From the IMG/VR virus record IMGVR_UViG_3300020001_000008, positions 1 to 23,851 of that record: 23,851 nt of DNA, one strand, 5' to 3'. Under the pieces are notes generated by a model that was given only the letters and a program-made list of their open reading frames with translations, searched no databases and was not told the DNA's origin. The translations under genes were made by a program, and so were the position numbers. This document shows positions 5,750-23,851 of this stretch, piece by piece. The stretch is from a virus. How positions within the stretch are numbered: position 1 is the first letter of the stretch; each line of letters begins with the position of its first letter.

Positions 5750-6400
5750 ATGGCAAAGGAAAAAGTAGAACAAGAAGAAAAAGAAAGACCGGATACGAAG
5801 CAACTAAGCGTGTCTAAAGATGCGTCAGTTGATTTTCCGGTCGAGGTTATAGCTACAGATTCTGACATTTATCATGAAACAGGTACAAAGTATCATGTGG
5901 GATCAAAAAAAGCTAAAGAGTTGGTCACTCGTGGATGGGTGAAAATGGCGGCATTTGTATTGTTTATACTCACTAGTATGTGTTCGTACGCACAAACTTC
6001 CGTATATGCTGATCTTTACAATGCAACGAATACTTTTAGCCAAGCATTATTGCAGGCTTCAGTTACGATTAAAGATACAGTAACAAATACAGGGACGGGG
6101 GTACTTTATACTAAATCGCGTGTAAGCGGGCCTGGCACTGTAACTGTTCAGGTTGTAGTAACTAAAGTGAGCGGTACGGTCGCTGGGTCGATTACATTGC
6201 TTGGAAGTCTTGACGGTGTAAATTTTAAGGCTATTCCAACGCGTGAGACGCAGACCGCTATTACAGTTATTACTGCCGCTGATGCATCGTCTAACTATTC
6301 CATACGGTTACCTGACAGCCCATATTTATGGTACGCGGTAAGCTGGACTGGATCGGCAACGATGGTGGCAACGTTTACAGCTAAAATAATGAAACACTAA
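5750..6400 (+). CDS. Two-part head protein with internal signal peptide
   Basis: One open frame of 216 residues contains two different proteins in series. Residues 1-65 form a small charged domain (VEVIATDSDIYHETGTKYHV, ending KELVTRGWVK), resembling short head-associated proteins found next to capsid genes. At residue 66 there is a Met (ATG 5945) followed by a textbook signal peptide: AAFVLFILTSMCSYA, then QTS, with Ser and Ala at -3 and -1 and Gln at +1. The remaining 130 residues are beta-rich (SGTVAGSITLLGSLDGVNFK, later YAVSWTGSATMVATFTAKI), like sandwich domains common in Bacteroidota phage proteins. Either ATG 5945 is a second start making a separate secreted product, or two genes fused by loss of a stop, leaving the hydrophobic stretch as a membrane anchor. 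The position right after the capsid gene suggests decoration or stabilisation of the head. Confidence 0.75.
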   Translation: MAKEKVEQEEKERPDTKQLSVSKDASVDFPVEVIATDSDIYHETGTKYHVGSKKAKELVTRGWVKMAAFVLFILTSMCSYAQTSVYADLYNATNTFSQALLQASVTIKDTVTNTGTGVLYTKSRVSGPGTVTVQVVVTKVSGTVAGSITLLGSLDGVNFKAIPTRETQTAITVITAADASSNYSIRLPDSPYLWYAVSWTGSATMVATFTAKIMKH

Positions 6401-21177: not shown

Positions 21178-21702
21178 ATGAAAACAATAATCTTTATTCT
21201 AATCAGTTTTTGCGCTTCCGCCCAAGTGGCCAACAATACTTGGGCTGTAGTCAACCTAAGCGATAATTTGCGCCTACAGTTTAACGGCAATCCCGTTAAG
21301 CAAAAAGCTGTGGTAAGCAGCTTTACGATCTACAATACAAAAGAATGGCAACTTGAGGTCATGGTACAGAGTTACGAAAGCGTTGCCGGGGCTTATGGGA
21401 ACTACATTCTAGCTACGATAGCCGCGGATGGAATTTTAACCACGGCTCAAAAAGATGTTCTAAGTTTAACCTATAGCGATAAATATATTCGTTATGGTAC
21501 GGCTGGGCACTGGGTGGACGTGAATGGTAACATAGTTGCAAGTGGCACCCCCGGAGCTATCACCGAGTTAGCTTATTGGCAACAGTTTAAGCTCAACCAA
21601 ATCGCTGGAACCGGTACGCTTTCCACCCAAGGCGCGTTGGATGAAATGTACTTAATCGTTGCGGCTTTGATAAATAAATTAAACACAAATAAAAACTGGT
21701 AA
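21178..21702 (+). CDS. Small secreted protein, unknown (1 of 3 after the fibre)
   Basis: The 174-residue product starts with a clear signal peptide (KTIIFILISFCASA, then QVA; Ala at -3 and -1, Gln at +1). The mature part is beta-rich first (NTWAVVNLSDNLRLQFNGNP; KEWQLEVMVQSYESVAGAYG) and helical near the end (GALDEMYLIVAALINKLNTN). It has no cysteine after the signal peptide. I do not recognise the family. The gene begins 9 bases after the fibre stop and ends 3 bases before the next gene, so it is in the fibre operon; a secreted partner of the fibre, a receptor-blocking or a lysis role are possible but unproven. Confidence 0.7.
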   Translation: MKTIIFILISFCASAQVANNTWAVVNLSDNLRLQFNGNPVKQKAVVSSFTIYNTKEWQLEVMVQSYESVAGAYGNYILATIAADGILTTAQKDVLSLTYSDKYIRYGTAGHWVDVNGNIVASGTPGAITELAYWQQFKLNQIAGTGTLSTQGALDEMYLIVAALINKLNTNKNW

Positions 21703-21705
21703 CCC

Positions 21706-22113
21706 ATGAAAACTAAACTTTTAACACTCACCTTCATCTTGTTTTCCATTCTATCTTATGCGCAGACTGACGTTGTGGCTAAAGCTGGCAAGCCTTCAAA
21801 ATCATTCACAGTAGGTGGTACACCAGCGCTACTTAATTTGCAGGATACACTGACCATTGAATTGCGGACTTACCAAAAACAAATTTTAACCAAACTCGAC
21901 TCGGTGCAAAAGGCGTTTGCGGCAGACGTGGAAAAAAACAAAGAAGTAATAGCCACCTTCAATACGTTAATGCAGCGATCGGCATCTATTCAGGAACAAT
22001 CCAGACAAGCGCAGGAATTGATTCTGGATGCGCAAGGAATTGACCCAAAGAAATTCCGGATTTCTGGTGGAGACCTGACTAAAGGAACGTTGAAGTTGGA
22101 AAAAATTAAGTAG
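21706..22113 (+). CDS. Small secreted coiled-coil protein (2 of 3)
   Basis: This is a 135-residue protein with signal peptide KTKLLTLTFILFSILSYA followed by QTD. The mature part is a polar linker (KAGKPSKSFTVGGTPALLNL), then a long helix with heptad-like spacing (TIELRTYQKQILTKLDSVQK; VEKNKEVIATFNTLMQRSAS; SRQAQELILDAQG), and a basic beta-like end (KKFRISGGDLTKGTLKLEKI). A periplasmic coiled coil is typical of spanins and also of proteins that hold fibres together. It lacks the lipobox Cys of an outer spanin and, if the signal is cut, the anchor of an inner spanin, so spanin is only a weak alternative. It lies 3 bases after the previous gene. Confidence 0.7.
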   Translation: MKTKLLTLTFILFSILSYAQTDVVAKAGKPSKSFTVGGTPALLNLQDTLTIELRTYQKQILTKLDSVQKAFAADVEKNKEVIATFNTLMQRSASIQEQSRQAQELILDAQGIDPKKFRISGGDLTKGTLKLEKIK

Positions 22114-22171
22114 CATATTAAAATATTGCCTGACGTTCTTTTAGTTAGACTGAATTGGTCAGAACTTAATG

Positions 22172-22200
22172 CAACAAGGGAGGTAAGGCGTCCCTTGTTG
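22172..22200 (+). terminator. Hairpin terminator after the fibre operon
   Basis: A perfect 10-base inverted repeat (CAACAAGGGA 22172-22181, TCCCTTGTTG 22191-22200, 9-base loop) is followed by ATTTAAAAG, 58 bases after the stop at 22113. A second, weaker fold precedes it: GTTCT 22135-22139 with AGAAC 22161-22165, enclosing GACT 22148-22151 with GGTC 22157-22160. The T-run is short, so termination may be partial. It separates the tail operon from the secreted pair that follows. No promoter matching the Bacteroidota consensus is obvious in the rest of the gap. Confidence 0.6.
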
Positions 22201-22219
22201 ATTTAAAAGAAAATTAAAG

Positions 22220-22513
22220 ATGAAACTTATATTTATTTTATTAATTGTTTCATTTGTATCTAATGGACAAATCATGCGACAGCCCACTGTCGATAAAATT
22301 CCATTTGCAGGAATGCTCATAGTTATTACTAAAGATCATCCATTTCCCAAATGTGAAGATTTCGCGAAATTGAATTGGGAAGCACTTAAGAAAAAACATA
22401 GTGAGCTAAAATCCAGAGCTATTCAATCCCATGAGGTGGTTTTAGTTTATCCAGGTAACAAAAGAATATATCTTACCTTTGATCAGCTTAAAGAAATTGC
22501 GTGTAAAAAATGA
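22220..22513 (+). CDS. Small secreted protein with two cysteines (3 of 3)
   Basis: The 97-residue product opens with a signal peptide (KLIFILLIVSFVSNG, then QIM). The mature part is basic and short, with a beta-like start (FAGMLIVITKDHPFPKCEDF), a helix (AKLNWEALKKKHSELKSRAI), a strand (HEVVLVYPGNKRIYLTF) and a last helix ending IACKK. The two Cys, near the start and end of the mature part, could form a disulfide in the periplasm. The family is not recognised. It comes 19 bases after the hairpin terminator, and its stop overlaps the next gene's ATG as ATGA (22510-22513), so it is coupled to the beta-helix protein and may act with it, for example as an immunity or folding partner (inference). 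Confidence 0.65.
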   Translation: MKLIFILLIVSFVSNGQIMRQPTVDKIPFAGMLIVITKDHPFPKCEDFAKLNWEALKKKHSELKSRAIQSHEVVLVYPGNKRIYLTFDQLKEIACKK

Positions 22514-23851
22514 AAAAACTCTTATTCATTCTCGCTTTCTTTTATTCCGCGGTTTCGGCTCAATCCATTCCATACAGTTCCACAGGTACGATTAGTATCG
22601 CCAAAATCTTTGCATTAAAAACGACTGCCGATAGCCTGTTCCTTGTGAATGAAATAAGAGTAAATGCTTTGGAGGCTTCGATTCTAAAGCTCAAGGCTTC
22701 GTTTGATTCGTTGTTAAGGGCTGTTCCTCCATTGCCTGTAAAGAAATACTCGGACATTCCGTTACCCCCATTGACATTCGGGACTGCGATTGTGCCAAGT
22801 AATTTTTGTTGTACCTCACCAGGATTATTTGACTTTGCCTCGGGACGACCTCCTGGAGACTATAAACCGAATGGGGCTTTTGTAAATGGGTTATCCATCC
22901 GGCAAGCAAGTGGGGCCTACAGATTCGTTACTACGGCTGGGGCGGTTTACGGCACGCAAGGCACCGGGCAGAATCACGGAATCAGTACTAATGGTGTCGG
23001 GACTTATGATCTTTCATTTTACGGTCTTGCCACGGCTGCTACTATTGTCACCGGCGAAAACGGATTTCAAATGCCATCGGCCAGCGGTGGGTCAACGATC
23101 TTAGTTCAGGATGCTGTAGCCAAAAACCCTAATGCGTCTGGTTTTACCGCCAATTTTGGAATATTGGGGACCAACTATTACAAAACTATTACGGTAAAAA
23201 ATCTCAGATGCTTCAACACTGGCCAAGAATGTATTTATGAGGGCAACACCGGGGCGAGTTACAACGGAACCAACTATATAAATGTATCGGTAGTCAGCAA
23301 TTGCTTTGGGTATAACCTCCAACGGGAGTTCATTCAAATAGAACACGCAAACTTTGTCACGGTTGAATATAATACCAGTATCAACGCCGGGCAGACGACT
23401 ACCAGTGGCCAAAGTAATAATTTTCAGTATCACGACAACGGGCCAGGAAGTCAAGTCAGGTATAATGTTTTTTCCGGGGCAAAGGACGGGTTCTCCATTG
23501 CTTCACACGGCTTACGCCTTCATCATAACTACATAAGCTGGACGGCGTTTCCCGGGCAGATCCTTCGCACCGACAACCAATACTTTGCGGCATTTGCTAA
23601 CCGGCTCACTGGGGACTCGATCATCATCGAAAACAACTGCTTCAAGAAACTTGGAGGACCTGATACCTATGCTGTGAAGGTTGAAGAAAGGATGGCGCCA
23701 ATCGTTTTCAGAAACAATACGCTCGATGGCTCTACGACAATGTATCTGGATAACAGGGTAGTAGGCTATACAAATACAATCACGGGCCAGGTTGGGAATC
23801 ACGGTAACGTTATTGGAACCTGCGGGTCACCTGTAATGGTGGGTTCGTATA
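22510..23851 (+). CDS. Secreted right-handed beta-helix protein, probable polysaccharide-binding or -degrading (3' truncated)
   Basis: The frame begins with ATG at 22510 and is open to the end of the window (447 residues seen, no stop). The signal peptide is KKLLFILAFFYSAVSA followed by QSI. Residues about 25-80 are helical and include a charged segment (NEIRVNALEASILKLKASFD); then a proline-rich linker (RAVPPLPVKKYSDIPLPPLT). From about residue 195 the sequence shows short repeating strands with Asn ladders (YKTITVKNLRCFNTGQECIY; FVTVEYNTSINAGQ; VRYNVFSGAKDGFS; LRLHHNYIS; IIIENNCFKKLGG; PIVFRNNTLDGS), the pattern of pectate-lyase-like right-handed beta-helices found in tailspike depolymerases and secreted lyases. 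It is G+C-richer than the window's tail genes. It may be a receptor-binding depolymerase added to the fibre, or a secreted cargo enzyme; no catalytic residues can be named. Confidence 0.8.
   Translation, partial: MKKLLFILAFFYSAVSAQSIPYSSTGTISIAKIFALKTTADSLFLVNEIRVNALEASILKLKASFDSLLRAVPPLPVKKYSDIPLPPLTFGTAIVPSNFCCTSPGLFDFASGRPPGDYKPNGAFVNGLSIRQASGAYRFVTTAGAVYGTQGTGQNHGISTNGVGTYDLSFYGLATAATIVTGENGFQMPSASGGSTILVQDAVAKNPNASGFTANFGILGTNYYKTITVKNLRCFNTGQECIYEGNTGASYNGTNYINVSVVSNCFGYNLQREFIQIEHANFVTVEYNTSINAGQTTTSGQSNNFQYHDNGPGSQVRYNVFSGAKDGFSIASHGLRLHHNYISWTAFPGQILRTDNQYFAAFANRLTGDSIIIENNCFKKLGGPDTYAVKVEERMAPIVFRNNTLDGSTTMYLDNRVVGYTNTITGQVGNHGNVIGTCGSPVMVGSY

Follow-up and report, generated by a model that had tools for sequence, protein, structure and literature searches.

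The last gene of the stretch analysed here raises two questions: what its product does, and whether it belongs to the phage genome in which it is found. The stretch, called the window below, is an entire IMG/VR record (G000) of 23,851 bp. It contains genes for a terminase, portal, protease, capsid and tail. After these come a large gene for a fibre-like protein, then three small genes and finally the gene at 22510 (Table 1). Profile searches with the fibre-like gene gave no informative match. A sequence-only reading had described the 22510 gene as one for a secreted beta-helix protein at the edge of a module, and had suggested that it may be a recently acquired depolymerase or prophage cargo.

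Table 1. Features of the window at and upstream of the 22510 gene.
Feature	Position	Strand	Remarks
Fibre-like gene, 1670 aa	16156..21168	+	Q-type signal; putative function, from place and repeats
174-aa cassette gene	21178..21702	+	Q-type signal; relatives in G001-G004
135-aa cassette gene	21706..22113	+	Q-type signal
Strong hairpin without T-run, ahead of the 97-aa gene	22172..22200	+	-21.2 kcal/mol, z -6.0
97-aa gene	22220..22513	+	Q-type signal; stop overlaps start of 22510 gene
Gene under study	22510..23851	+	ORF open at record end, 447 aa present; ~475 aa via contig L027
Sec signal-peptide-like N-terminus, MKKLLFILAFFYSAVSA^Q	22510..22560	+	Home-made score 4.96
Probable amphipathic helix or stalk, residues ~36-72	22615..22725	+	Helix moment 1.05-1.21, residues 51-76
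Repeat-like core, candidate right-handed beta-helix	23035..23850	+	Asn motifs at 23356, 23512, 23620, 23701

The 3′ boundary of the gene could be traced beyond the window. The record terminates within the 22510 gene, and the supposed module edge is therefore only the edge of a contig; phage genes carry on past this point in the relatives. Record G001 (54,236 bp) encodes a complete homologue of 479 aa that is 92% identical to the 22510 protein. A scan with the amidase alignment found the contig L027 (record G007), the first 127 nt of which are identical to positions 23725-23851 of the window with matching frame. We infer that the window and L027 come from a single phage. The continuation in L027 provides the stop that was to be sought past 23851 and gives the C-terminus ...GSYSDPDNYPVQGLQESTSPWYDWGYRGLRH. 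In the complete G001 homologue, neither a T9SS sorting domain (NCBIfam, Pfam) nor an S74 domain (Pfam) was matched, and the L027 C-terminus gave no NCBIfam match to a T9SS sorting domain.

In both G001 and L027 the gene is followed by genes for a transmembrane (TM) protein, an 85-aa protein and a receiver-domain protein (PF00072 in G001). Downstream of these, G001 encodes a protein of the Amidase_2 family, and its counterpart in L027 is 95% identical. The 22510 gene of both phages is thus located between the fibre-like cassette and the TM, receiver-domain and amidase genes, which places it in the middle of a phage genome and not at a prophage end next to host DNA. The earlier suggestion of prophage cargo expressed from the host side has the different base composition and the signal peptide in its favour. 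However, TM, receiver-domain, amidase and further phage genes follow the 22510 gene, its start overlaps the stop of the 97-aa gene by 4 nt (ATGA), and no promoter or terminator of its own stands out in a consensus scan, which returned 7 promoter-like sites where shuffled sequence would be expected to give 4.3 (sd 2.4). The gene had also been said to follow a terminator. The hairpin at this place has no T-run and precedes a separate gene, the consensus scan detected no + strand terminator in 21600-23851, and the G001 locus L002 contains a similar, weaker hairpin. Of seven records examined for a tyrosine integrase, G004 alone gave a match, and G004 does not have the 22510 gene; none was detected in G000, G001, G002, G003, G006 or G007, although these records may be incomplete. 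The search for a resolvase covered six records, among them the first five of these, and had no match. Taken as an explanation of the 22510 gene, prophage cargo is very improbable.

Two observations on these records are noted here in their own right. The integrase match in G004 (contig of 68,688 bp) lies at 53042-53560 and is above the family cut-off. The receiver domain between the TM genes and the amidase is a stand-alone response-regulator receiver domain (L002:8213-8581 and L027:994-1362; PF00072 match of the L002 copy, E 2.5e-18). PADLOC reported nothing on the 22510 gene and gave weak matches only, on the L002 receiver-domain protein.

The base composition of the gene does differ from that of the tail genes, as had been stated. 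Its G+C content is 0.460, compared to 0.36-0.42 in the 14 head and tail genes, and its GC3 is 0.479, compared to 0.28-0.38 in all 14 of them (mean 0.329, sd 0.034; Fisher P = 4.6e-11 against the pooled genes). The line 22921-22980, which had been cited as a sign of oddness, indeed contains 36 G or C, but the same count is reached by 256 overlapping 60-nt windows, many of them in head, tape-measure and fibre genes. That line is not special; the true contrast lies in third positions and codon use. The fibre gene averages 0.445 G+C with stretches near 0.50, and its GC3 of 0.329 is like that of the head and tail genes. The difference in composition therefore holds against the fibre gene as well (GC3, Fisher P = 7e-9), a comparison named earlier as part of what could refute the reading. 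Codon use was compared between tables of the window and of G001, each head or tail gene being excluded from its own table. All 14 head and tail genes gave positive, window-like values, and the fibre gene and the 97-aa gene are also window-like. The 22510 gene (-0.084 per codon), the 21178 gene (-0.079) and the 21706 gene (-0.069) gave negative, G001-like values.

In an all-against-all BLASTP of the picked ORFs (E 1e-5), 4 of the 19 window ORFs matched G001: a part of the fibre gene, the 174-aa gene, the 135-aa gene (128 aa in G001) and the 22510 gene. The head and tail proteins of the window had no match in G001 at this threshold, and the terminase and portal belong to different PHROGs in the two phages. 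By the same comparison, the head and tail genes of G006 are closely related to those of the window, with 14 ORF pairs, and G002 has the cassette in common with the window, plus two tail proteins at 29-33% identity. Synonymous divergence of the window or L027 from G001 was calculated by the Nei-Gojobori method, in which the high values are saturated. It is 0.43 for the 22510 gene, 0.11 for the TM gene, 0.14 for the 85-aa gene, 0.32 for the receiver-domain gene and 0.37 for the amidase gene, and 1.15, 2.7 and 3.1 for the upstream 174-aa, 128-aa and 97-aa genes. The low values from the 22510 gene to the amidase imply that a recently exchanged block starts near 22510 and extends through the amidase. 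The dN/dS of about 0.09 for the 22510 gene indicates that its protein is under constraint.

No match to the 22510 gene was found in any of the five records G002-G006, G005 and G006 stopping short of the place where it would be expected. In G002 a different TM gene directly follows the 97-aa gene, and TM genes and an amidase relative come after the cassette of G003 and of G004. One of two further records checked has the gene, namely G007, the source of L027. Searches with the 22510 protein found no homologue in genome contigs, phages, plasmids or PDB sequences, and the 174-aa alignment used as query found none in genome contigs. Among the viral contigs scanned with the 22510 protein or its parts, the G001 record alone was matched; these scans require short exact peptide matches and so miss distant relatives. 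The earlier suggestion of recent acquisition is supported by the foreign codon use, by the 92% identity to a homologue from a phage that is otherwise unrelated, by the synonymous divergence of 0.43 against 1.15-3.1 upstream, and by the missing gene at the corresponding place in G002, G003 and G004. This suggests that Bacteroidota viruses swap genes for host-secreted proteins.

The assignment to Bacteroidota derives from the predicted export signals. These were scored with a home-made measure rather than SignalP, which combines a basic start, a hydrophobic stretch, a small residue before the cut and Gln after it. By this score the N-terminus of the 22510 protein is Sec-like, in agreement with the signal peptide noted earlier, and all five cassette genes of the window are predicted to have Q-type signals. 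Across six contigs, 18 of 20 cassette ORFs carry such signals compared to 2 of 306 other ORFs; the cassette spans for this tally were drawn after the pattern was seen, and it omits the fibre of G006, whose start looks signal-like by eye, and also, because the ORF picker passed over them, the 97-aa homologues in G001 and in G002. Each of the two ORFs within the spans that have no Q-type signal encodes a 159-aa protein, one in G001 and the other in G002. PMC5837995 describes this Q-rule as a property of the substrates of Bacteroidota signal peptidase I, and the signals thus point to a Bacteroidota host. Of the control isolates, phi14:2 (100,000 of 100,418 bases) has one Q-type ORF, of 85 aa and without structural annotation, and none was found in B40-8, phi18:1, phi18:2 (28,000 of 38,476 bases) or phi17:2 (28,000 of 145,343). 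Q-type signals are therefore no general fibre trait in these few isolates. A literature search that covered few subscription journals and preprints identified no published export signals on phage fibres.

Three further features were seen in these regions. In the ORF that follows the window's gene for the major head protein (5750-6400), an internal start precedes a stretch resembling a Q-type signal, which may mean two overlapping genes; a 40-codon limit kept this start out of the above tally. The 159-aa protein is membrane-like, is 100% identical between G001 and G002 (L002:5217-5696, L009:9026-9505) and was not seen in the cassette of the window. A gene of 136 aa on the minus strand, again with a Q-type signal, is present at L027:2549-2959 (-) and on the G002 contig at L009:11776-12186 (-), with a DNA match of 92%.

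The export signals bear on two other explanations of the gene. It could encode an ordinary virion tailspike, whose N-terminus is unused or serves assembly and whose trimer, packed in the cytoplasm, digests capsule at adsorption. Beta-helix trimers are the usual tailspike design, and both the place of the 22510 gene after a fibre-like gene and the helical stalk before the core would suit such a protein. However, Q-type signals are near-universal in the cassette and nearly missing elsewhere in the same contigs, and none of the virion ORFs annotated by MS/MS in phi14:2 and phi18:1 scored as Q-type. We consider a tailspike doubtful. Alternatively, the product could be a non-enzymatic adhesin or surface protein, which is exported, alters the surface of the infected cell and, for example, blocks further adsorption. 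The export signals, the neighbouring small exported proteins and the lack of a catalytic family match speak for this, but the adjacent amidase suggests late expression, when superinfection would presumably be less important, and we regard an adhesin as unlikely.

The fold of the 22510 protein was assessed from its repeats. The motif [VIL]x[VILFY]x[NHY]N, chosen after inspection as one of four regexes tried on the core, occurs four times there, compared to a mean of 0.32 in shuffles (P 0.0002), and at most twice per 277-aa stretch among 247 other proteins. Two of the four regexes were not enriched in the core (P 0.15 and 0.36), and the Asn motif is missing from a P22 tailspike fragment. The protein matched nothing in Pfam (including Beta_helix PF13229 and relatives), PHROG, NCBIfam or PDB sequences. 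AlphaFold2 gave unusable models with a mean pLDDT of 28 (full length, 2-row alignment) and 31 (core); a low-confidence model has a helix at residues 43-70. No PHROG or Pfam match to a virion-anchoring N-terminal domain was obtained, and the N-terminus is signal-like. The right-handed beta-helix of the sequence-only reading was accordingly not confirmed by any profile or PDB-sequence match, its sole support being the repeated Asn motif. We nevertheless regard a beta-helix as the probable fold of the core.

We tentatively propose that the 22510 gene serves a Bacteroidota tailed phage as an accessory late gene gained by exchange, and that its product is a Sec-exported, probably glycan-directed solenoid protein. 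The gene would have been acquired from phage to phage as the first in a block with the TM, receiver-domain and amidase genes. The host Sec pathway would export the product and cut it before Gln. Outside the cytoplasm the product may form a helical stalk and a parallel beta-helix and, by analogy with other beta-helix proteins, might bind or cleave an envelope or matrix glycan of the host. Such an activity would aid release, spread or competition. A more speculative proposal, to which we give limited credence, concerns the cassette as a whole, which would be mobile. Here the fibre-like protein and its partners would all be exported through Sec, and the phage would build a secreted or surface fibre layer beyond the cytoplasm, or dress its virions no earlier than export or lysis, with the beta-helix-like gene as a swappable extension. 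The cytoplasm is the normal site of tail-fibre synthesis and assembly. If true, such a shared and exchanged block with export signals throughout would point to phage proteins that act outside the infected cell, at lysis or earlier. The exchanged cassette of Q-rule fibre-like proteins, as drawn from six contigs and a heuristic score, is the more interesting result.

Similar to the tailspike depolymerases of the P22 type, the 22510 gene is a late phage gene near a fibre gene, and its product may share with them a stalk, a beta-helix and a glycan target. Unlike these tailspikes, the protein begins with a Sec-type signal in which Gln follows the cut. It gave no sequence or profile match and has no recognised virion anchor, and its Asn motif is missing from the P22 tailspike fragment. 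The secreted bacterial tailspike-like enzyme WceF, reported in PMC7949094, is similar in concept, as a protein that is secreted, modifies glycans and folds like a tailspike. WceF is encoded by a bacterial gene. The closest parallel for the export signals may be found in phages of Porphyromonas gingivalis, for which PMC10367356 reports five Q-rule signal-peptide genes of unknown function. These resemble the cassette genes in having signal peptides that leave Gln exposed and in lacking a known function. The phages discussed here differ in that the genes form a compact cassette, which includes a large fibre-like gene, occurs in phages that are otherwise dissimilar and has a swapped accessory gene as its extension.
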